In this document: piece by piece, positions 2,568 to 61,631 of the stretch
How positions within the stretch are numbered: position 1 is the stretch's first letter
Layout of the letters: each line of letters opens with the position of its first letter
Assembly: GCA_026706815.1 (NCBI GenBank)
Contig: JAPOYA010000057.1
Span: forward strand, 109,228 to 173,227
Length of the DNA: 64,000 nucleotides
Direction: 5' to 3'
DNA from: Acidimicrobiaceae bacterium
Lineage (GTDB): Bacteria > Actinomycetota > Acidimicrobiia > Acidimicrobiales > Aldehydirespiratoraceae
Position numbers and translations under genes: made by a program
Notes under the pieces: generated by a model
What the model was told of the DNA's origin: nothing
Databases searched by the model: none
Seen by the model: only the letters and a program-made list of their open reading frames with translations

Positions 2568-3587
2568 CTACACCTTGAACACACAGCAACCAGGCGCACA
2601 GTCGCGAGGTCGCGCGGGCAAGGCGCTGAGGGCTCGAGGAGCCAGACGGCCCAGTCGCTCCTCTATCAACTCGCGGGCCATTGCTATGAACTCCGGATCC
2701 GGAACGGTCCCAGGCGTAGCCGCACGCTCGATGGACAGCCCCAGTTCGTTGGCCGTCGCCACTGCTTGGTGGTCTAAATCCCAGAGCACTTCGACATGGT
2801 CGGAGATGAATCCGATCGGGATCACCACAGCGTTGTCGCAACCCTGAGAGGCGAGCCAGCGGAGGTGATCGTTGACGTCGGGTTCAAGCCATGGCACCGC
2901 GGGGGACCCCGAGCGGCTCTGCCAGACGAGATGGCAGATGCTCTCGGACGACGCCTTGCCGGCCACTAGGTCCATCGCGGCCTGCAACTGGGATTCGTAG
3001 TCACAACTGCTCGCCATCGCCACCGGTATGGAATGGGCAGTGAACACCAGAGGTGGCGGGTCGACTGCCCCAAGACGCTCGAGCGCATCCTGGGTCGATC
3101 GAATGAACGGTTCGACAAACCCGGGATGATCGAAGTAGGGACGGATCTTGTCGATTTGCAAGCCGTCCGCACCTGCCGCCGACTTGGCGCGCTCGATGTC
3201 CTCGATGTACTGCCGACAACCCGAATAGGAACTGTAGGCAGACGTCACCAGAGCGACGGCATGGCGGACTCCCTCGGAGGCCATCTGCGCGACCGCCTCA
3301 TCGAGCAGAGGATGCCAGTTGCGGTTCCCCCAGTAGACGGGAAGCGAATGGCCGGCTGCATCGAGTTCGGACTGCAGCGCTTCACGAATGCCTCGACACT
3401 GCTCGTTGATTGGGCTGACGCCTCCGAAATGCGCATAGTGAGCACCTGCCTCGGCCAACCGCTCCGGTCCGATACCGCGACCGGCCGTCACCCGCTCGAG
3501 AAACGGCACGACATCCTCTGGGCCCTCCGGACCACCGAAGCCGACCAGCAGAACCGCGTCGATATCAGACGCGTCAATATCGGACAC
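2568..3587 (-). CDS. hemH: Ferrochelatase (protoporphyrin/coproporphyrin type)
   Basis: 339 aa, the usual length. It inserts ferrous iron into a porphyrin in haem synthesis. Visible family features: LLVGFGGPEGPEDVVPFL at the N-terminus, the metal-binding region VFTAHSIPVAMA with its conserved His, and GFISDHVEVLWDLD near the C-terminus with the conserved acidic residue. The C-terminal tail DCAPGCCVF has clustered cysteines like the [2Fe-2S]-binding tail known in mycobacterial enzymes. In actinobacteria the substrate is normally coproporphyrin III, so a CpfC role is likely. The gene is divergent from the ABC exporter genes with about 40 bp between starts. Confidence 0.93.
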   Translation of the reverse strand: MSDIDASDIDAVLLVGFGGPEGPEDVVPFLERVTAGRGIGPERLAEAGAHYAHFGGVSPINEQCRGIREALQSELDAAGHSLPVYWGNRNWHPLLDEAVAQMASEGVRHAVALVTSAYSSYSGCRQYIEDIERAKSAAGADGLQIDKIRPYFDHPGFVEPFIRSTQDALERLGAVDPPPLVFTAHSIPVAMASSCDYESQLQAAMDLVAGKASSESICHLVWQSRSGSPAVPWLEPDVNDHLRWLASQGCDNAVVIPIGFISDHVEVLWDLDHQAVATANELGLSIERAATPGTVPDPEFIAMARELIEERLGRLAPRALSALPARPRDCAPGCCVFKV

Positions 3588-17605: not shown

Positions 17606-17678
17606 GGGGGTGTAGCTCAGTTGGTAGAGCGCCTCGGTCGCATCGAGGAGGCCAGGGGTTCAATTCCCCTCACCTCCA
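17606..17678 (+). tRNA. tRNA-Ala (anticodon CGC)
   Basis: A complete 73-nt cloverleaf. The acceptor stem GGGGGTG pairs with CACCTCC and includes a G3:U70 wobble pair, the identity element of tRNA-Ala. The D arm is GCTCAGTTGGTAGAGC. The anticodon stem CCTCG/CGAGG encloses GTCGCAT with anticodon CGC. The T arm AGGGGTTCAATTCCCCT is standard. The discriminator is A, and CCA is not encoded. Confidence 0.96.
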
Positions 17679-49628: not shown

Positions 49629-49752
49629 TGGGCGACGATATCCGAACGCCGGCTGCTGACACGAACATTTGCCGCAAACGCATGATTGGCGTTGGAGCGC
49701 GCCGCAGAGCGTGTGATTGATGACACGCGATTCGAGGCGGAGAGACGCACCT

Positions 49753-49787
49753 GTTCCGCATTGCGGTATTGTTCCAATGTGGAGAAC
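49753..49787. promoter_or_regulatory. Tandem palindromic operator upstream of the formate dehydrogenase operon
   Basis: GTTCCGCATTGCGGTAT (49753-49769) and GTTCCAATGTGGAGAAC (49771-49787) are two copies of the IclR-type 17-bp site. Their starts are 18 bp apart, as before fhs. The second copy ends 6 bp before the chosen GTG start at 49794 and overlaps its ribosome-binding GGAG. Binding would block translation start and probably transcription. Confidence 0.65.
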
Positions 49788-49793
49788 GTTGCT

Positions 49794-51821
49794 GTGGACG
49801 ACAGCGAAGCGAACGCCCAATCAGCCCCCAAAGGACCGACTCGGCGGGGACTTGATCGCGGCAACCGCCGTCAGCGTTACATCAAGCCCACTGAGCGAAT
49901 CGCGACTCCGATGGTGCGAGAAAACGGTGAACTGCGTGCTGCTTCATGGGATGAGGCGCTTGCCCGCGCGGCGCAGGGTCTCGCCCGGGTCCGGGACCAG
50001 TACGGCGGCGAAGCGTTCGGCATGTTCAGCTGCTCCAAATCAACCAACGAGATGAACTACGCGGCGCAGAAGTTCATCCGCTGCGCGATGCGGTCCAACA
50101 ACATTGATTCCTGTAATCGAACTTGACACGCACCCTCGGTCGTCGGTCTGGCGACAGTGTTCGGAGCAGGAGGGGGAACATCGTCATATGCAGAAGTGGA
50201 ACAAACTGATGTCGTCCTGCTGTGGGGCTCCAACGCCCGAGAGGCCCATCCGATCTACTTCCACCATCTGTTGAAGGGTCTCGACAACGGGGCGAGAATG
50301 TACGCGGTCGACCCCCGCCGGACGAGTTCGTCGAAGTTCGCCGACGCCTGGCTCGGACTCGACGTCGGCACCGACATCGCACTGGCGAATGCAGTCGGCC
50401 GCGAGATCATCGCTGCGGGACTGCACGACGCCGACTTCATCGCCCACTCCACACAGGGCTTTGAGGATTACAAGGCGGCGGTCGAGCAATACACGCTTGA
50501 GGCGGCCGAGGAGATCACCGGTGTGCCCGCTCACGCGATCCGCGAACTGGCACATGACTATGCCAACGCTGATACTGCCCAGATCCTGTGGACTCTGGGG
50601 ATCACCGAACACCACAACGCGGTTGAGAACGTCCTGTCGTTGTGCAACCTGGCACTGCTCACCGGGCATGTCGGACGCTGGGGATCGGGTCTGGTGCCGC
50701 TGCGCGGCCAGAACAATGTGCAGGGAGGCGGTGACATGGGTGCGCTGCCCAACAAGTTCCCCGGATTCCAAGACGTCGAGGATCCGGTGGCGCTTGCCAA
50801 GTTTGAAGCCGCCTACAACATGTCGCTGCCCGCCGAACCCGGGCTCCACCTCACCTTGATGTTCGAGGCGATGGAGCAGGGCAGAATCAAGGGGCTCTAT
50901 GTGATCGGCGAGAACCCCGCAGACTCAGAAGCCGATGTGGCCCATGCCCGCAAACTGCTCGACGGGCTCGACATTCTCGTCGTGCAGGACATCCTGATGA
51001 CCCGGACAGCCGAAATGGCTGATGTCGTGCTGCCCGCAGCGGTCGGATGGGCCGAATCCGAGGGAACGGTCACTTCGTCGGAACGACGGGTGCAACGGGT
51101 TCGCGCCGCGGTCCCGCCACCCGGAGAGGCCCGCTGGGACACCGACATCATCGGCGACCTCGCGAACCGCCTCGGAGTCGATTGGGGCGCACCTACTCCC
51201 CAAGACCTCTGGGACGAGCTCCGGTCGCTGTCGCCGCTGCACGCGGGGATGAGCTGGGAACGCCTGGAGTCTGAGGGCGGGCTCCAATGGCCATGCAGAG
51301 ACTCAGACGACCCCGGCAGTACGTTCCTGCACGGCTGGCTGTGGGCCGATGACCTCGAGGGCCGCGATCCGGCCCCGTTCAGCGTGTGCCACCACGAAGG
51401 ACCCAAGGAACAGCTCAGCGACGAATTCCCGCTTCGGCTCACGACCGGGCGAGCGCTCGACAGCTACAACACCGGCGTGCAGTCAGGCGGCTACGCATCG
51501 CCGATCCGCTACGGAGACGGCATCGACGTCAATCCGGCCGATGCTGCGCGCCTCGGCCTCAGCGACGGCGAACGGGTGCGCGTCTGCTCTCCCCGCGGCT
51601 CTGTGGAGACTTGTGTCCGCATCCAGCCGGACATTCCCAAGGGCCTCACCTTCACCACTTTCCATTTCCCGGAACTGGTCGATGTCAACCAGCTCACCAA
51701 TCCCGAATGGGATCCGCGTTCCGGTACAGCGGAGTTCAAAGCGGCGGCCGTGCGGATAGAACGTATAGAGACAGAGAAGACTCCCGACTCCGACTTGGCG
51801 ACCACACTTGCTGATGGCTGA
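49794..51821 (+). CDS. Selenocysteine formate dehydrogenase catalytic subunit (lacks its N-terminal Fe-S domain)
   Basis: 675 aa if the in-frame TGA at 50124-50126 is read as selenocysteine (residue 111). The frame before it ends NNIDSCNRT and the frame after it continues HAPSVVGLATVFGAGGGTSS, which together form the conserved active site of molybdopterin formate dehydrogenases (Sec/Cys-His). Downstream are EQTDVVLLWGSNAREAHPIY, PLRGQNNVQGGGDMGALPNK and the C-terminal MGD-binding part (FPLRLTTGRALDSYNTGVQS). The start is the GTG at 49794 with GGAG upstream. The normal N-terminal CxxCxxxC [4Fe-4S] domain is missing here; it is found at the end of the third gene of the operon. It oxidises formate to CO2. 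Confidence 0.9.
50127..50160 (+). promoter_or_regulatory. SECIS-like element directly after the selenocysteine TGA
   Basis: A hairpin at 50139-50155 has arms GTCGTC and GGCGAC (one G.U pair, or a bulged U) around the loop GGTCT. The GGTCT loop begins at base 19 after the TGA, the same distance as in the E. coli fdhF element, which also has a GGUCU loop and a bulged U. This is the binding site of the SelB elongation factor. It supports recoding of the TGA. Confidence 0.85.
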
Positions 51822-53601
51822 CCTGTTTATCGGCGATGACATCGCCGACGATGTTGAAATTGCCGCAGTTGCGACTGTTATAGGGTCTCCGACCGCGATT
51901 GTGCATGAGACTGAGCGTCTCGTGTACGGCGGCACACACCGCCGCCATGACCACCGCCATCTGCTGCTTCCGGCCCTTCATGCGTTGCAGAGCGCCAAGG
52001 GATGGATCAGCCCCGGGGGTCTCAACCATGTCTGTGAACTGCTGCAGGTACCGCCGGCGGAGGCATACGGAGTCGCGACGTTTTACGACATGTTCCGACT
52101 CGACGAATCCGATCACCCCTCTGAGGTCGCCCATGTCACCCATGTCTGCGTTGACGCCGCCTGCCAGATAGCGGCCAACGAGGAACTGATCGCCGAGCTC
52201 GAGGCGAACGGGGAACAGGTTCACCGCTCGCCCTGCCTCGGACAGTGCGAACGGGCTCCGGCTCTGTTCCGCCAGGGAATCGGCAGGCCCGATTCTGTGC
52301 CCGCAGATGCCGTCGAGGTTGCCGAGGCTGCCAGGCGGATACCGCAACAGGGGGACCCGTCGCTGCGGCTGCTGCGCAATGTCGGTGTGGTAGACCCCAC
52401 CTCGCTGGATGCTTACCGGGCCAACGGCGGTTACCGGGCGCTTGCCGAAGCGATTGAGATGGGGCCGGCCGCGGTGTGTGCGGAGGTGGCTGACTCGGGC
52501 CTCTCAGGTCGCGGCGGAGCGGCGTTCCCGACCGGCGTCAAATGGCGGGCTGTGGCCGCTGAGCAGGGGCGCCCCAAACATGTCGTGGCCAACTGCGATG
52601 AGTCCGAGCCGGGCACGTTCAAGGACCGGATCGTGATGGAGCAGGACCCCTTCGCGGTGGTCGAGTCGCTCACGCTCGCGGGTTTCGCGACCGGCGCCGA
52701 GAACGGCTGGATCTATATTCGCGGCGAGTATCCGTTGGCCACAGCGAGGCTTGAGAATGCCGTGGGCCAGGCTCGTGAGGCGGGTCTGCTGGGCGCTGAC
52801 GCGGCTGGATCGGGGCATCGTTTCGACATCGAGATCCGCCGGGGCGCCGGTGCGTACATCTGCGGCGAGGAGACTGCCCTGTTCGCTTCACTTGAGGGGT
52901 TCAGGGGCGAGCCGCGCAGCAAACCGCCGTTCCCCACCACACATGGACTGTTCAGAGAGCCAACCGCGGTCAACAACCCCGAGACGCTGATCAACACCCT
53001 CGACATCGTGCTCCACGGCGCGCAGGACTATCGCAGCAGGGGGACGGAGCGATCACCGGGAACGAAGCTGCTGTGTGTGAGCGGAAGGGTGTCCGAACCT
53101 GGTCTCTACGAGGTGCCCTTCGGCACGACGCTCGGTCAGGTGCTGGATCTCGCAGGCCCTCTCACTGGAAGCGGTGCGCTGGCTGCGGTGCTGATGGGCG
53201 GCGCGGCCGGGTCGTTCGTCGGACCGGACGCTCTCGACATGCCCCTCACGCTGGAGGACACGCGTGAACGCGGCACCACGCTGGGTTCGGGCGTGGTGAT
53301 GGCATTCACCGATGAGATCGACATGACCGATGTGCTAGTGCGCATCGCGGAGTTCTTCAGGAACGAGTCGTGCGGTCAGTGTGTGCCCTGCCGTGTCGGC
53401 ACTGTCCGCCAACATGAGACGATGGTGCAGATTCAAGCGAAGGGCTCTTTGTCGCCACAGCGCCGCAGTCTCGTCGGCGACATCGCCGAGGTGATGGTGG
53501 ACGCCTCCATTTGCGGACTCGGCCACACTGCGGCGTCTGCTGTCAATTCCGCTATGGACCTCGGCCTGTTGTCGGCCACGAACGGGGATAGCCCGCGATG
53601 A
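51814..53601 (+). CDS. NuoE-NuoF fused NADH-oxidoreductase-type subunit of formate dehydrogenase
   Basis: 595 aa from the ATG at 51814, which overlaps the end of the preceding gene. Residues ~45-175 are a NuoE-like thioredoxin-fold [2Fe-2S] domain with cysteines in VCVDAACQIAANEE and SPCLGQCERAP. Residues ~180-590 are NuoF-like: GRGGAAFPTGVKW (NAD/FMN region), GAGAYICGEETALFASLEGF (FMN) and the [4Fe-4S] site ESCGQCVPCRVGT. Together these pass electrons from formate to NAD+. This fused arrangement is known from soluble NAD-linked formate dehydrogenases and hydrogenases. Confidence 0.92.
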   Translation: MADLFIGDDIADDVEIAAVATVIGSPTAIVHETERLVYGGTHRRHDHRHLLLPALHALQSAKGWISPGGLNHVCELLQVPPAEAYGVATFYDMFRLDESDHPSEVAHVTHVCVDAACQIAANEELIAELEANGEQVHRSPCLGQCERAPALFRQGIGRPDSVPADAVEVAEAARRIPQQGDPSLRLLRNVGVVDPTSLDAYRANGGYRALAEAIEMGPAAVCAEVADSGLSGRGGAAFPTGVKWRAVAAEQGRPKHVVANCDESEPGTFKDRIVMEQDPFAVVESLTLAGFATGAENGWIYIRGEYPLATARLENAVGQAREAGLLGADAAGSGHRFDIEIRRGAGAYICGEETALFASLEGFRGEPRSKPPFPTTHGLFREPTAVNNPETLINTLDIVLHGAQDYRSRGTERSPGTKLLCVSGRVSEPGLYEVPFGTTLGQVLDLAGPLTGSGALAAVLMGGAAGSFVGPDALDMPLTLEDTRERGTTLGSGVVMAFTDEIDMTDVLVRIAEFFRNESCGQCVPCRVGTVRQHETMVQIQAKGSLSPQRRSLVGDIAEVMVDASICGLGHTAASAVNSAMDLGLLSATNGDSPR

Positions 53602-54476
53602 CCGTTGCTCCTGATGCGGCTGTTGCTGAGGTCACCGTGACCCTCACGATCAACGGCCGGGCCGTCTCGGTGCCCGAGGGCACATCGATACACAAGGCTT
53701 GTGAGTCGGCCGGTATCGAGACGCCGACCCTGTGCTGGGCCGAGAACCTCACCCCGGTCAACGTCTGCCGGGTGTGCGTGGTCGAGGTGGAGGGCTCACG
53801 AGCGCTCGTTCCTTCGTGCGCTCGCGCCGCGGAGGACGAGATGGTCGTGCAGACCGACTCCCCTCGGGTTCGCCACAGCCGCAAGATGGTGCTCGAGTTC
53901 CTCGGTTCGAGCGTCGACTTGAGCCAGGCGACCGAGTTGGCTGCGTGGATGCGCCACTACGGGGCGGACCCGGACCGCTACGACCAGCCCGACCTGCCGG
54001 CCGAGCGGATCAGCGAGGAGCCCAAGATCCAGGACGACCTCTACATCCGCGACTACGACAAGTGCGTGCTGTGCTACAAGTGCGTCGAGGCTTGCGGCGA
54101 CGACGCGCAGCACACCTATGCCATCGCGGTCAGCGGACGTGGTTTCGACGCGCGGATCTCCACGGAGTTCGACACAGTGCTGCCAGATTCAGCGTGTGTC
54201 TACTGCGGCAACTGCATCGGCGTCTGCCCGACCGGGGCGATCCAGTTCAAGACCGAGTTCGACATGCGGGCAGCGGAGGTGTGGCGTCCTGACGAACAGG
54301 AGGTCACGACGACGGTCTGCTCGTTCTGCGGTGTCGGCTGCAACCTCGAGTTGCACACGCAGGACGACAGGATCGTGAAGGTCACTTCGCCGGCGGATCA
54401 CTCCGTCACTCACGGCCACCTCTGCATCAAAGGCCGTTTCGGTTGGCAGTACGTGCAACCGCCCACCCGAAAATAG
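53598..54476 (+). CDS. NuoG-like iron-sulfur subunit carrying the N-terminal Fe-S domain of the formate dehydrogenase alpha subunit
   Basis: 292 aa, overlapping the previous gene by 4 bp. Cys46, 57, 60 and 74 form a plant-type [2Fe-2S] site. Two ferredoxin [4Fe-4S] sites follow (Cys146/149/152/156 and Cys190/193/196/200). The last ~60 residues are the first domain of a molybdopterin oxidoreductase: CSFCGVGCNLELHTQDDRIV (Cys241, 244, 248) and HGHLCIKGRFGWQYV (Cys276). The protein stops exactly where a normal FdhA would continue with the part encoded at 49794. The catalytic subunit is therefore split and the order of its parts reversed in the operon. Confidence 0.9.
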   Translation: MTVAPDAAVAEVTVTLTINGRAVSVPEGTSIHKACESAGIETPTLCWAENLTPVNVCRVCVVEVEGSRALVPSCARAAEDEMVVQTDSPRVRHSRKMVLEFLGSSVDLSQATELAAWMRHYGADPDRYDQPDLPAERISEEPKIQDDLYIRDYDKCVLCYKCVEACGDDAQHTYAIAVSGRGFDARISTEFDTVLPDSACVYCGNCIGVCPTGAIQFKTEFDMRAAEVWRPDEQEVTTTVCSFCGVGCNLELHTQDDRIVKVTSPADHSVTHGHLCIKGRFGWQYVQPPTRK

Positions 54477-56140: not shown

Positions 56141-56223
56141 CCTAACGGTTGCGAAGAACAGCCGAAGATCACAGGCAGTTCGGGGCTAGTGGAGAGGTTG
56201 GAACTAGTAGTGTGACGGGTCAC

Positions 56224-57762
56224 ATGAGCACAGAGTCGCCGCCTCGTCGCCGGGGTCGCCGTGAGCGTCCCTCCGGTCCCGTAGCACCGCCCCAGCCTGA
56301 TTGGAGACTGCATCGGCGACCGTTCGCGCCGACCGCCGTTGTCTCCGACGATGAACTCGAGTCGATCCATGACTCTTCGCTGCTCGTTCTGCGAGATGTC
56401 GGCATGGACTTCCTCCATCCGAAAGCCACCGAGATGCTCGCGGCGGCAGGCGCCGACGTCGACGGCGAGCGGGTTCGCTTCGATCCGGCGATGGTTACTG
56501 AATTGATCAGCACCGCGCCCGCTGAGTTTGTGATGCATGCGCCCAACCCTGATCGCGACCTGCTGATCGGGGGCGACAGCGTGGTGTTCGGCTCGGTGGC
56601 GAGCGCGCCCAACGCGGCTGACCGCAAAGGAGGTCGCCGCACCGGGAACCGCGCCGATTTCCGCAATCTCGTCCGGCTGGCGCAGTGCCTCAACTCGGTT
56701 CAAACCCACGGCGGCTATCCGGTCGAGCCGATCGACATTCACCCCTCGATTCGCCACCTGGAAGCGTTCCGGGACCTTTTGACGCTGTCGGACAAGGTTG
56801 TGGACGCCTACTCGCTCGGTGCGCAACGCAACATCGACTGCCTGGAGATGGTGCGGATCGTGCGTGGCGTCAGTGACACCGAACTCGACGAGCAGCCGTC
56901 GATCCACTCAGTGATAAATGTGAGTTCGCCGCTGCGTCTCGACAGACCGATGATCGAGGGCATTCTGGAGTTCTCGTCGCGCAATCAGGTGATCGTGCTC
57001 ACACCGTTCACGCTTGCGGGTGCGATGGCGCCCGTCACTGTGGCGGGTGCGGTCGTGCAGCAGAACGCAGAGGCGTTGGCGGGAGTCGCTCTCACCCAAT
57101 TGGTCCGGCCCGGCGCGCCGGTCATCTACGGCGGGTTCACCTCCAATGTCGATATGCAGTCGGGTTCCCCCGCTTTCGGCACCCCCGAATACATGCAGTC
57201 GGCGCTGCTCGGAGGACAACTGGCGCGCCGCTACGGCCTCCCGTACCGCTCGTCCAACGTGTGTGCTGCGAATGCAGTCGATGCCCAGGCCGGTTATGAG
57301 TCGGTGTTCTCGCTGTGGGGTGCAGTCATGGGCGGCGCCAACCTGGTGTTCCACGGCGCGGGTTGGATGGAGGGCGGGCTTCACGCCGGCTTCGAGAAGA
57401 TGGTCATCGACAACGACCTGTTGCAGAGCGTGGCCGCCTTCCTGCAGCCGCTGGTTGTCGACACTGCGTCCATGGCCCTCGAGGCGATAGCCGACGTCGG
57501 ACCCGGCGGCCATTTCTTCGGCGCACAGCACACCCAGGACCGCTATCGGAGCGCCTTCTTCAAACCAGCGGTGTCGGACTGGCGCAACTACGAGTCATGG
57601 GCCGAGGCCGGGTCGCCCACCGCGTTGGATCACGCCGAACGCCTGGTCGAGGCCCATCTTGAGGCGTATCAGCCCCCTCATCTGGATGAGACTGTGCGAG
57701 AGGAACTGCATGCTTACGTCGATCGGCGCGTCGCCGAGGGCGGGGTTGAGACGGACTACTAG
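56224..57762 (+). CDS. MttB-family methyltransferase (non-pyrrolysine)
   Basis: 512 aa from the ATG at 56224. It belongs to the trimethylamine methyltransferase superfamily: LRDVGMDFLHPKATEMLAAA, VFGSVASAPNAADRKGGRR, AFGTPEYMQSALLGGQLARR and VDAQAGYESVFSLWGAVMGG are typical. Where trimethylamine enzymes carry pyrrolysine, the sequence reads SSNVCAANAVDAQAG, with no in-frame TAG. It is therefore a non-Pyl member, like those that demethylate quaternary amines such as glycine betaine, or proline betaine or carnitine. Its methyl acceptor is normally a corrinoid protein, which is not encoded in this window. Confidence 0.85.
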   Translation: MSTESPPRRRGRRERPSGPVAPPQPDWRLHRRPFAPTAVVSDDELESIHDSSLLVLRDVGMDFLHPKATEMLAAAGADVDGERVRFDPAMVTELISTAPAEFVMHAPNPDRDLLIGGDSVVFGSVASAPNAADRKGGRRTGNRADFRNLVRLAQCLNSVQTHGGYPVEPIDIHPSIRHLEAFRDLLTLSDKVVDAYSLGAQRNIDCLEMVRIVRGVSDTELDEQPSIHSVINVSSPLRLDRPMIEGILEFSSRNQVIVLTPFTLAGAMAPVTVAGAVVQQNAEALAGVALTQLVRPGAPVIYGGFTSNVDMQSGSPAFGTPEYMQSALLGGQLARRYGLPYRSSNVCAANAVDAQAGYESVFSLWGAVMGGANLVFHGAGWMEGGLHAGFEKMVIDNDLLQSVAAFLQPLVVDTASMALEAIADVGPGGHFFGAQHTQDRYRSAFFKPAVSDWRNYESWAEAGSPTALDHAERLVEAHLEAYQPPHLDETVREELHAYVDRRVAEGGVETDY

Positions 57763-57790
57763 CAACGGACTATCAATAAAGGACTGCCAG

Positions 57791-59059
57791 TTGAGGATCG
57801 AACAGAAGCGCCACGTATCGGAGGACGCGGGTGTTGAGCGTTGGGTTGACGAGTCGGTTTGGGGGGGCACGAGGGCCTCCTTGACCGCAGCGACCGGACT
57901 GCCGCCTCAGATGTACACCGACGAGGGCTTCTTCTCTGTGGAGCACAGCCGGGTGTTTGAACGAGCGTGGGTGGCGGTCGGCAACGCGGCCGAAGTGGCC
58001 GAGGCCGGTCGCTTGCTGGTGCGCCAAGTCGGCAGTCGGTCGATCCTCATCACCCGTGACCAGCAGGGTGTGCTGCGCGGCTTCGTGAACTCGTGCCGCC
58101 ACCGCGGAACCGAGTTGGCCGCGAGCGACTGCGACGTCGGCAGGACGATCCGCTGTCCCTATCACCGTTGGGGCTACGGACTCGACGGGTCCCTGCAGTC
58201 GACGCCCTTCTTCGAGGAGATTCCACGCGCTGGTTTCAGTCGGGAGGACTTCGGGCTCGTTGAGGTCCGAGTCGACACTTGGGGCTTGCTGCTGTTCGCC
58301 TGTGTCGACCCGGCGACCCCTCCGTTGCGCCAGTGGCTCGGCGATCTCCCCCAGCGGATGGGCGGGTATGGCTTCGACCGGTGGAGAGTGCAGTCGGAGA
58401 TGACCTTCGAGGTCCGGGCGAACTGGAAGCTGATCTCGGAGAACTTTCAGGAGTACTACCACCTGAGTTGGGTCCACCCGGAGCTGGCGAAGGTCTCCAG
58501 AGTCAAGGACCACTACCGCTATCAGGGACCGGGGATGTACTGCGGCCAGACCACCACCCCCGTCTCGGGCGATGACCGCGACGACTGGCTGGTGCTGCCG
58601 TCCGCAGCGGGGCTCAACCAGTCTGACTCTGTCAGCGGGCGCTTCGTTGCGGTGTTCCCCAATGTGATGTTGTCGGTGCTGCCCAACCATGTGTTCCTGA
58701 TCCGGCTCGAACCAGTCACTGCCGGGTTGACCCGAGAGCGGTGTGCGTTCCTGCTACCGCCTTCGACGCCCGACGTGTCGGACGAAGACATGTCCCAAAC
58801 TCGCAGTTTCTGGGTTGACGTCAACGACGAGGACATCGACATCGTCGAACGGGGGCAACGCGGGGTCGCCGCGGGCGCTGTCGCACCCGGGCCGCTCGCC
58901 CCGCGGTTTGAAGAACCACTGCATCGTTTTCACAACATGCTCGCCGACACCATGACCGCCGACTGCTCCGCAGATATCGCGATCCCCTGCGGCGACGACG
59001 ACAGTGAAGCCTCCCGCCTGGGCAGCGGCGTGAATCCCCATCCGCCCGAGTTCGGTTAG
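57791..59059 (+). CDS. Rieske-type non-haem iron oxygenase (N-demethylase-like)
   Basis: About 422 aa from the TTG at 57791, which has AAAGGA upstream and lies 28 bp after the previous stop. A TTG at 57881 (GAGGG upstream) and an ATG at 57911 are alternatives. The Rieske [2Fe-2S] motif is CRHRGTELAASDCDVGRTIR followed by CPYHRWGY. The mononuclear iron site follows in NWKLISENFQEYYHLSWVHP. Related enzymes remove N-methyl groups as formaldehyde from glycine betaine, stachydrine or carnitine. No reductase subunit gene is adjacent, so electrons must come from elsewhere. Confidence 0.86.
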   Translation: MRIEQKRHVSEDAGVERWVDESVWGGTRASLTAATGLPPQMYTDEGFFSVEHSRVFERAWVAVGNAAEVAEAGRLLVRQVGSRSILITRDQQGVLRGFVNSCRHRGTELAASDCDVGRTIRCPYHRWGYGLDGSLQSTPFFEEIPRAGFSREDFGLVEVRVDTWGLLLFACVDPATPPLRQWLGDLPQRMGGYGFDRWRVQSEMTFEVRANWKLISENFQEYYHLSWVHPELAKVSRVKDHYRYQGPGMYCGQTTTPVSGDDRDDWLVLPSAAGLNQSDSVSGRFVAVFPNVMLSVLPNHVFLIRLEPVTAGLTRERCAFLLPPSTPDVSDEDMSQTRSFWVDVNDEDIDIVERGQRGVAAGAVAPGPLAPRFEEPLHRFHNMLADTMTADCSADIAIPCGDDDSEASRLGSGVNPHPPEFG

Positions 59060-59084
59060 CGGCGAGAGACAGGCGACGAAGCAG

Positions 59085-61631
59085 ATGAAGACCGATGCGC
59101 GAGTCGTGGTGGTTGGCGGCGGGGTGGTCGGCGCCTCGGTGCTGTACCACCTCGCCAAAGCGGGATGGACCGACGTGGTGCTGGTGGAGCGGACCGAGCT
59201 GACTGCGGGGTCGACTTGGCACTCCGCGGGTGGGATGCACACGCTCAACGGCGATCCGAACGTGGCTCGACTGCAGCGCTACACGATCGATCTGTACGCC
59301 GAAATCGAGGAGGTCTCGGGCCAGGACTGCGGCATTCACCTGACCGGAGGGTTGATGCTCGCCGATACGGAGCAACGCTGGGATTGGTTGGGAATGGCCC
59401 ATGCCCGCGGACGCTATCTGGGTCTGGAGACAGAGCTGCTCTCGGCTGCCGAAGCGAAACGACTCATGCCTCTGCTCGACGAGAAGTACTTCGTCGGGGC
59501 CATGTACGACCCTCATGAAGGCCATGTCGACCCGGCGGGAGTCACCCATGCCTATGCAAAGGCGGCACGCCTGAAGGGAGCTGAGGTGTACCGCAACACC
59601 TGGGTTCGTGAGATCACCCGTGTCGGCGGCGGAGGCTGGGACGTCCACACCTACGACACCGCCTCGGGCGATGAGAAGGGGGTGATCCGTTGTGAACATG
59701 TGGTCAATGCCGGGGGGCTGTGGGCACGCGAGGTGGGACGCATGGTCGGGCTTGATCTGCCGGTGCTGGCCATGGAGCATCAATACCTTCTCACTGAGGA
59801 CATTGAAGAGATCGCCGAACACAACAGCGAACACGGCGAACTGATGCACTGCATTGACTTCGGGGGTGAGATCTATCTGCGCCAGGAGGGTGGCGGGCTT
59901 CTTCTGGGAACCTACGAGCGAAGCGGTGAGTCCTGGTCGCCACGTCAGACTCCGTGGGACTTCGGCATGCGCCTGTTGCCGCCCGACCTCGAGCGCATCG
60001 CTGATTCTCTCGAAATCGGTTTCCGACACTTCCCGGCCATCCGTGAGGCCGGCATCAAGCAGGTGGTCAACGGTCCTTTCACCTTCGCCCCCGACGGCAA
60101 CCCGCTGCTGGGTCCGGTTCTTGGTTTGCGCGGTTACTGGTCGGCGTGCGCGGTCATGGCCGGACTGTCCCAAGGGGGCGGTGTCGGTGTCGCCTTGGCC
60201 AACTGGATCACTGAGGGCGATCCCGGTTTCGACGTTTGGGGGATGGACATCGCGCGCTTCGGCGACTTCGCGGCGCCTGGGTACACCCGCGTCAAGGTCG
60301 CTGAGAACTACAGCCGACGTTTCCGGATCAGGTTCCCCAACGAGTTCCTCCCGGCCGCGCGCGCTGTCCAGACATCGCCGATCTTCGACCTGTTGCGTGC
60401 GCGGAACGCGGTGTTCGGAGACGGTTTCGGCCTGGAGGCGCCTCTCTGGTTCGCCCGGCCAGGCGCTGAGCCAGTCGAGGAAGTCACCTTCGGGCGGTCA
60501 AACGCTTGGGATCAGGTTCGGGCCGAGACCCTGGCGGTAAGGGCTGGCGTCGGGATCAGTGAGACGACCGGTTTCTGCAAGTTCATGGTCACCGGCCCTG
60601 ACGCCCGTGCCTGGTTGGATCGACTGTTGGCCTCGCGGGTGCCCAACCCGGGCCGGATGGCTCTGGCGCCCATGACCAACGGGAAGGGCAATCTGATCGG
60701 TGATCTCACGGTGGCCTGTCTCGGTCCGGCGCCGGGGCGCGCGGAGGGCCCCGAAGCCACGATCGTCGGTGGTACGACCGGCAACATACGAGGCGAAGAG
60801 CGGTTTGTGATTTTCGGATCGGGTGTAGCGGAGCGTTACTACGAACGCTGGTTCCACCAGCAGACGCCTGTCGACGGTGGCGTTTCGATCGACGCTCTGG
60901 GCGCAGAGATGTGCGGCTTGTCGATCGCGGGCCCGAACTCCAGGGCGTTGCTCGAAAAGTTGACAGACGCCGACGTGTCCGCTCACGGGATGCGGTTCAT
61001 GGCCTTCACCGAGCTGGAGATCGGCCTGGCCCCGGTGTGGTGCGGCCGTGTTTCCTACACCGGTGACCTGGGCTACGAGTTCTGGATGCCGGCGCGTTAC
61101 CAGCGCTACGTGTATCAACAACTGCTCAGCGCGGGGGAGGAGTTCGGCTTGCGTCATTTCGGGCTCCACGCGCTCAACTCGCTGCGTTTGGAGAAGGGCT
61201 TCGGGTCTTGGGCTCGGGAGTACCGTCCGATTTATGATCCCTTCGAGGCTGCGCTCGGTCGTTTCGTGCGACTTGAGAAGGATTTCATCGGTCGAGACGC
61301 TCTGGCCGAGAAGTACGCATCGGCCGGCCCTGGCCAGAAGTTGGCCCAGAAATTGGCGTTGTGTACTTGGAGCGTTGAGTCCGAACCCGGCCGAGCCGGT
61401 GCCGACGCGATCGGTGACGAACCGATCGCTTACGAAGGCGATGTGGTCGGCTGGGTGACCTCAGGAGGCTATGCACACCACTCCGAGACCTCGGTGGCCT
61501 TGGGCTACGTGCCCGCCGAGCTCAGTGGGGCTGCGGGCGCCTTCGAGATTGAGATACTGGGCCGACAACGCGAAGCGAAGCTCATCGAAGGATGCTTATG
61601 GGATCAACAGGGCGAAAGGATGCGTTCTTGA
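59085..61631 (+). CDS. Dimethylglycine/sarcosine dehydrogenase-like FAD-GcvT protein (second copy)
   Basis: 848 aa. The FAD domain begins VVVVGGGVVGASVLYHLAKAG, and LTAGSTWHSAGGMHTLNGDP contains the His that is covalently bound to FAD in dimethylglycine dehydrogenase. A GcvT domain covers residues ~440-848 (CKFMVTGPDARAWLDRLLAS; GRVSYTGDLGYEFWMPARYQ; HALNSLRLEKGFGSWAREYR). It would demethylate dimethylglycine or sarcosine and pass methylene groups to THF. It is 25 bp after the Rieske gene, and the M24 gene overlaps its stop. It keeps the classical STWH sequence that the copy at 38.9 kb has changed. Confidence 0.9.
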   Translation: MKTDARVVVVGGGVVGASVLYHLAKAGWTDVVLVERTELTAGSTWHSAGGMHTLNGDPNVARLQRYTIDLYAEIEEVSGQDCGIHLTGGLMLADTEQRWDWLGMAHARGRYLGLETELLSAAEAKRLMPLLDEKYFVGAMYDPHEGHVDPAGVTHAYAKAARLKGAEVYRNTWVREITRVGGGGWDVHTYDTASGDEKGVIRCEHVVNAGGLWAREVGRMVGLDLPVLAMEHQYLLTEDIEEIAEHNSEHGELMHCIDFGGEIYLRQEGGGLLLGTYERSGESWSPRQTPWDFGMRLLPPDLERIADSLEIGFRHFPAIREAGIKQVVNGPFTFAPDGNPLLGPVLGLRGYWSACAVMAGLSQGGGVGVALANWITEGDPGFDVWGMDIARFGDFAAPGYTRVKVAENYSRRFRIRFPNEFLPAARAVQTSPIFDLLRARNAVFGDGFGLEAPLWFARPGAEPVEEVTFGRSNAWDQVRAETLAVRAGVGISETTGFCKFMVTGPDARAWLDRLLASRVPNPGRMALAPMTNGKGNLIGDLTVACLGPAPGRAEGPEATIVGGTTGNIRGEERFVIFGSGVAERYYERWFHQQTPVDGGVSIDALGAEMCGLSIAGPNSRALLEKLTDADVSAHGMRFMAFTELEIGLAPVWCGRVSYTGDLGYEFWMPARYQRYVYQQLLSAGEEFGLRHFGLHALNSLRLEKGFGSWAREYRPIYDPFEAALGRFVRLEKDFIGRDALAEKYASAGPGQKLAQKLALCTWSVESEPGRAGADAIGDEPIAYEGDVVGWVTSGGYAHHSETSVALGYVPAELSGAAGAFEIEILGRQREAKLIEGCLWDQQGERMRS

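Follow-up and report, generated by a model that had tools for sequence, protein, structure and literature searches.

A predicted NAD+-linked formate dehydrogenase from an Acidimicrobiaceae genome with its proximal [4Fe-4S] domain encoded apart from the catalytic chain

Formate dehydrogenases (FDHs) of the FdsABG type, known from the structures of Rhodobacter capsulatus (6tg9 and 6tga) and M. extorquens FDH1 (7vw6 and 8j83), combine NuoE, NuoF, a NuoG-like Fe-S arm, an Fe4S4 domain and a core that carries bis-molybdopterin guanine dinucleotide (bis-MGD). The NuoE/NuoF diaphorase module is encoded together with the alpha subunit, and the R. capsulatus alpha subunit, FdsA, is one chain. Here we analyze an operon with the same total domains, and with its diaphorase module likewise beside the alpha-subunit parts, on a stretch of 64,000 nucleotides (the window) of contig JAPOYA010000057.1 from an Acidimicrobiaceae bacterium. 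In this operon the alpha subunit is cut at the equivalent of FdsA residue 304/305, the halves stand in reversed gene order, and a NuoE-NuoF (NuoEF) gene lies between them. It also differs from FdsABG in that NuoE and NuoF are fused, and the metal ligand is predicted to be selenocysteine (Sec) in most members of the split family. In the other FDHs compared, the catalytic chain includes the first [4Fe-4S] domain. Judging from the sequences, it is very likely that the operon encodes a Sec-containing, NAD+-linked FDH whose proximal [4Fe-4S] domain is supplied in trans by the NuoG-like subunit.

The divided alpha subunit and its distribution

An earlier note on this DNA, written from the letters alone, had proposed that the catalytic gene lacks the N-terminal [4Fe-4S] domain and that this domain forms the end of the NuoG-like third gene (gene 3). 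Both proposals hold. By Pfam, the catalytic protein contains PF00384 (Molybdopterin) and PF01568 (Molydop_binding) without PF04879 (Molybdop_Fe4S4), and the gene-3 protein contains, in this order, Fer2_4, Fer4 and PF04879, the last ending five residues before the C-terminus (Table 1). In the Fdh-alpha model TIGR01591 the catalytic protein matches positions 26-672 of 672 with 646.8 bits, and positions 1-49 are matched by gene 3 with 54 bits. R. capsulatus FdsA (6tg9_A) is covered by the two genes in turn, residues 25-304 by gene 3 and residues 305-936 by the catalytic chain, which bears out the claim that gene 3 stops where the catalytic gene begins in normal proteins. The operon holds a complete set of FdsA-type alpha-subunit parts. 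The gene-3 stop lies 16 residues past the first letter of the CIKGR motif, and Cys241, Cys244, Cys248, Cys276 and Lys278 are invariant in all 45 aligned gene-3 proteins. The possibility that the catalytic frame hides an Fe4S4 domain farther upstream was considered and rejected, as there is none; a CxxCx2-4C motif before the catalytic domain in that frame was found in none of the 95 three-gene loci described below.

The gene between the halves is one open reading frame (ORF), in which PF01257 (2Fe-2S_thioredx, NuoE) is followed by PF01512 (Complex1_51K), PF10531 (SLBB) and PF10589 (NADH_4Fe-4S) of NuoF. Its ATG at 51814 lies within the end of the catalytic gene, whose stop is at 51819-51821 (overlap of 8 bases), and it shares an ATGA at 53598-53601 with gene 3. 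The catalytic gene starts with GTG, nine bases downstream of a GGAGA at 49781-49785; an alternative in-frame start, TTG at 49686, lies upstream. In some relatives (loci L064, L083 and L105) a possible start is a Met a few residues ahead of the conserved RLT motif.

Table 1. Positions of the operon features in the window.
Feature	Position	Strand	Basis
Catalytic subunit gene (bis-MGD core and dinucleotide-binding domain)	49794..51821	+	PF00384 and PF01568, TIGR01591, sequence
In-frame TGA, predicted Sec codon, active-site metal ligand	50124..50126	+	Frame translation, relatives
SECIS-like hairpin (SECIS, selenocysteine insertion sequence), 6 base pairs, GGUCU apical loop	50139..50155	+	Conservation in TGA stretches
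NuoE-NuoF fusion gene	51814..53601	+	Pfam domains, sequence
NuoG-like electron-transfer subunit (gene 3), 292 aa, ends in displaced Molybdop_Fe4S4 domain	53598..54476	+	Pfam, alignments
Fe4S4 domain, gene-3 residues 235-287, Cys241/244/248/276 and Lys278	54300..54458	+	PF04879, 75.9 bits

To follow the split among relatives, we used a set of 61 genomes (its own and 60 relatives). Gene 3 (59% identity or more) and the catalytic gene with the TGA (62% or more) were each found in 39 of them. Both halves occurred in 37, and the four genomes with a single half (G014, G015, G016 and G053) had it near a contig edge. A wide scan with 17 gene-3 query proteins against one genome per species (84,980 species) gave at least 565 relatives. 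The best 80 of these, being the nearest to the split form, describe the family and not all FDHs, and in all 80 the gene-3 protein ends shortly past the CxKG motif. Altogether 118 loci were examined, and in the 95 with three recognised genes (92 distinct) the genes lie on the same strand in the order catalytic gene, NuoEF, gene 3. The gene order reverses the protein order, as the note had said, and the alpha subunit, one chain in the FdsABG type, is split in all 95. Since the same break and order recur throughout, we rejected an assembly artefact or rearrangement as the cause of the break. Across these loci gene 3 ends 2-53 residues past CxKGR; 68 of them show the NuoE motif within the NuoF ORF, and the pattern went unmatched in the remaining 27. 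The other 23 of the 118 loci comprise 21 that are truncated, at a contig edge or at the end of the fetched stretch, L102, which fails only on the NuoF N-terminal pattern, and L129, which is taken up below.

The split occurs in Actinomycetota, Chloroflexota, Acidobacteriota, Eremiobacterota and Bacillota; the taxa given in the titles of the records are Acidimicrobiia, Streptomyces, Pseudonocardia, Saccharopolyspora, Thermoleophilia, Chloroflexota, Acidobacteria, Eremiobacterota and Bacillota, and many of the records are metagenome-assembled genomes (MAGs). Of 396 Actinomycetota genomes drawn evenly, 41 matched gene 3 with E values of 4.7e-134 or lower, with the stop position checked in those whose locus was also fetched otherwise; one further match (E 1.3e-76) is probably a fused protein. 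Four of 249 Bacillota genomes have gene 3, including the genome on which the draw was centred, and all four show the break. One assembly (G018) carries two copies of the split operon, L063 and L064, on two contigs, with an estimated contamination of 6%. A tblastn search of plasmids returned 334 records, all below 60% identity; among the 20 listed, those with annotation are called FDH, and the architecture was checked for L203 and L204 only.

In a tree of catalytic sequences (63 rows, 648 columns) 23 split rows fall on one side of a branch with a Shimodaira-Hasegawa-like approximate likelihood ratio (SH-aLRT) support of 100, and in a tree of N-terminal halves (58 rows, 293 columns) 24 split rows do so with a support of 99, so that the split halves group apart from the fused enzymes in both. 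The groupings within the family agree in outline (window-L052-L058-L105, L109-L113 and L123-L143); L130-L139 are joined in the catalytic tree and form an unresolved group with L078 in the other. Because the fused FDHs compared and Escherichia coli FdhF have the domain within a single chain, the split is most simply a derived state. The 34 fused NuoG-type FDH loci (33 distinct, L231 being the same as L244) have the NuoF C-terminal motif upstream in 24, downstream in one (L204) and nowhere in the DNA examined in nine. In L204, from Nonomuraea gerenzanensis, the alpha subunit is fused and both the NuoE and NuoF motifs lie downstream instead of upstream, which makes a further gene order. Circularly permuting [NuoE-NuoF][N half - catalytic half] gives the order [catalytic half][NuoE-NuoF][N half]. 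A single event of this kind in the ancestral operon is the likely origin of the arrangement; a tandem duplication of that operon followed by loss of both ends would produce the permuted order. No intermediate was seen among the loci examined.

The predicted selenocysteine codon

The earlier note overlooked an in-frame TGA in the catalytic gene. Counted from the TTG at 49686 it is residue 147, and its context, NNIDSCNRT-U-HAPSV, places it exactly at the Sec/Cys ligand position. The corresponding codon is a stop in 77 and Cys in 18 of the 95 three-gene loci, by a pattern that required one or the other, and the stop was TGA in every locus where the codon itself was inspected. Downstream lies a hairpin, which we compared in 88 distinct stretches of 57 bases. 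The loop and all five inner pairs are kept in each of the 72 stretches with TGA, while among the 16 with a Cys codon the loop is kept in one, and two to four of the five pairs are retained in all, indicating that the hairpin has decayed there. Within 38 rows taken from the TGA stretches, 99.6% of the cells are paired, one pair shows a two-sided change (in two rows), and covariation scores 0.191, compared with 0.144 ± 0.013 after shuffling. The Streptomyces and Saccharopolyspora loci (L130-L167) have Cys instead of Sec in an otherwise similar split operon, with the SECIS hairpin decayed.

The genome encodes SelA and SelB, in adjacent genes, SelD and a tRNA-Sec of 92 bases (64.7 bits). Together with the in-frame TGA and its downstream hairpin, these comprise the elements expected for bacterial Sec decoding. 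FdhD is encoded as well. SelB was over the cut-off in all 41 genomes with either split half and in six of the 20 others. The selD gene, outside the window (G000:C7:9952-10875), itself has an in-frame TGA, and SelD is probably a selenoprotein in this genome. Public entries for the catalytic protein are often about 540-558 aa long, with the start called after the Sec codon (e.g., P0162, 554 aa, 100% identity), and gene-3 entries are named HndD or YjgC. The family has been hidden because the catalytic entries often lack the part before the Sec codon and the gene-3 entries carry these names.

Proposed working of the enzyme and alternative explanations

In this enzyme superfamily the CxKGR lysine lies between cluster and pterin. 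Because this lysine, the cluster cysteines and the active-site residues are conserved, we propose that the C-terminal domain of gene 3 would pack onto the catalytic chain, in its usual place, when the complex assembles. SelB would read the TGA as Sec, and bis-MGD would sit in the catalytic chain. Electrons from formate would pass through Mo to the trans-supplied [4Fe-4S] cluster via Lys278, then along the remaining Fe-S clusters of gene 3 and by way of NuoE/NuoF and FMN (flavin mononucleotide) to NAD+. The overlapping start and stop codons may keep the separated halves at near-equal amounts. With somewhat less assurance, we think it probable that the family as a whole, across phyla, has an obligate trans-supplied proximal [4Fe-4S] cluster, in which an arm with a lid domain and a relay lysine closes over a separately made Mo core, and that one operon permutation was kept in the 95 three-gene loci. 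If so, synthesis of the core and its loading with cofactor could take place separately from the first electron acceptor, and bis-MGD insertion and cluster docking would be two separable assembly steps. The assembly order, the oxygen sensitivity and the role of the first cluster would become directly testable, and the parts could be swapped in the engineering of CO2/formate catalysts. It would also mean that a circular permutation at the operon level became fixed in several phyla, in a Sec as well as a Cys version.

Several observations weigh against the proposed trans-supplied, Sec-containing enzyme. The catalytic protein falls below the curated TIGR01591 cut-off (646.8 against 666.25 bits), but this is as expected for a protein without the first 25 model positions. 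In L129, from a Chloroflexi MAG, NuoF and gene 3 are present and the catalytic gene is absent before position 3338 despite more than 2 kb of DNA; it could have been lost, moved or misassembled. The Sec/Cys site is occupied as predicted in 42 of 43 catalytic rows, but the remaining one, a metagenomic sequence (P0160), has Arg. Most variation in the hairpin pairs is one-sided, and the 42 bases from the TGA onward do not fold with unusual stability (z +1.33). The minimum-energy structure of these bases is not the hairpin, yet their centroid is. An Rfam scan of the window gave no SECIS match, only an ordinary tRNA at 17606-17678. Both trees were built by a quick method, the N-half tree with long-branch warnings, and we know of no measured activity of an isolated family member.

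An enzyme that is split as proposed, but serves CO2 reduction, another carrier or electron bifurcation instead of formate:NAD+ turnover, seems unlikely to us. NuoEF-type modules also occur in bifurcating hydrogenases and transhydrogenases, the gene-3 profile matches HydA1 chains of bifurcating hydrogenases, and the gene-3 model matches StnABC and NfnABC chains. On the other hand, the three-gene operon has no gene for an extra ferredoxin-type subunit. His86, Arg278, Gly279 and Gln280 of the catalytic chain are invariant in the 43 rows, and the family has Sec or Cys followed by His, and Arg-Gly-Gln, as in the C/U-H ... R-G-Q active-site pattern of class I FDHs given in PMC8808070. In addition, the genes at 56149-61631, next to the operon, encode an MTTB-family methyltransferase, a Rieske oxygenase and a DAO-GCV_T fusion protein. 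They are probably involved in betaine/methylamine demethylation, which would feed one-carbon units and suggests demethylation as the source of formate.

We consider it quite improbable that the catalytic chain is served by a free ferredoxin or a full-length alpha subunit, and that the Fe4S4 domain of gene 3 is a NuoG-type, N7-like cluster which ends there by chance. The gene-3 C-terminus is PF04879 and matches Fdh-alpha 1-49, the very piece absent from the catalytic chain, and its ligands and lysine do not vary in the 45 rows. Also against this reading, the 4Fe-4S domain in the NuoG of the same genome (L170) likewise directly precedes a Molybdopterin domain. Furthermore, a separate full-length alpha subunit that could use this operon was looked for and rejected, since the draft genome, which is 95% complete, yielded none: the three Molybdopterin proteins that it encodes besides this one score 241, 150 and 147 bits against the Fdh-alpha cut-off of 666, one of them being NuoG and the other two having their own Fe4S4 domain. 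Finally, a true stop at the TGA, with the catalytic gene in two pieces or a pseudogene, agrees with the gene callers that often begin the protein after it and with the unremarkable stability of the RNA fold, but we rejected it as extremely improbable, given that TGA-containing proteins of the split family align over their whole length, the codons inspected are all TGA or Cys, the hairpin has decayed where the codon is Cys, and the full Sec machinery is present.

Comparison with known systems

In the Bacillota sample, the fused relatives that score highest against the catalytic chain, at about 700 bits, are clostridial-type FDHs of about 900 aa with a NuoG-like N-terminus (e.g., L208-L223). Most of them have a TGA at the same place, and NuoF is usually adjacent, as in the split family. 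Unlike in the split operon, their N-half and catalytic half form one chain, and the order is NuoF, then alpha. E. coli FdhF (formate dehydrogenase H) and the FdhF of HDCR (hydrogen-dependent CO2 reductase) have their own N-terminal Fe4S4 domain, which in E. coli FdhF is residues 1-55, uncovered by the catalytic chain, and they lack the NuoG-like arm of the split operon. A bis-MGD enzyme built from more than one chain is formylmethanofuran dehydrogenase (FwdB, 432 aa, and FwdD), in which the C-terminal dinucleotide-binding domain forms a chain of its own while the core retains the Fe4S4 domain. In the split FDH, PF01568 shares its chain with PF00384.

Rohwerder et al. (2020, PMC7176365) describe a cytoplasmic FDH3 of Actinomycetospora chiangmaiensis whose three subunits have 640 (Sec), 614 and 316 aa and are thus close in size to the proteins of this operon. 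All three subunits were detected in the proteome, 2.2- to 3.1-fold more abundant on 2-hydroxyisobutyrate than on acetone, and formate removal required selenite. Another Sec-FDH, FDH1, was expressed too (PMC7176365), a point against the proposed reading. Other Actinomycetospora species have gene-3 homologues of 310-392 aa that contain PF04879. FDH3 is probably the same kind of enzyme as the split family, and by analogy its data support the expression of all three chains. The accessible part of PMC7176365 gave no mention of an Fe4S4 domain on the third subunit, and the 'split' genes in that of PMC7325909 are other genes. The claim that no enzyme with this order has been described therefore stands in part: no description of the split architecture was found in the open-access literature, in a search that left subscription papers and supplements outside and used some terms that may have been too narrow, but the arrangement itself is common and a three-subunit FDH of the same subunit sizes is in print. 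Thus, the enzyme appears to be known as a three-subunit FDH, and its split architecture would, on the sequence comparisons, be a new variant of the NAD-linked FDHs.
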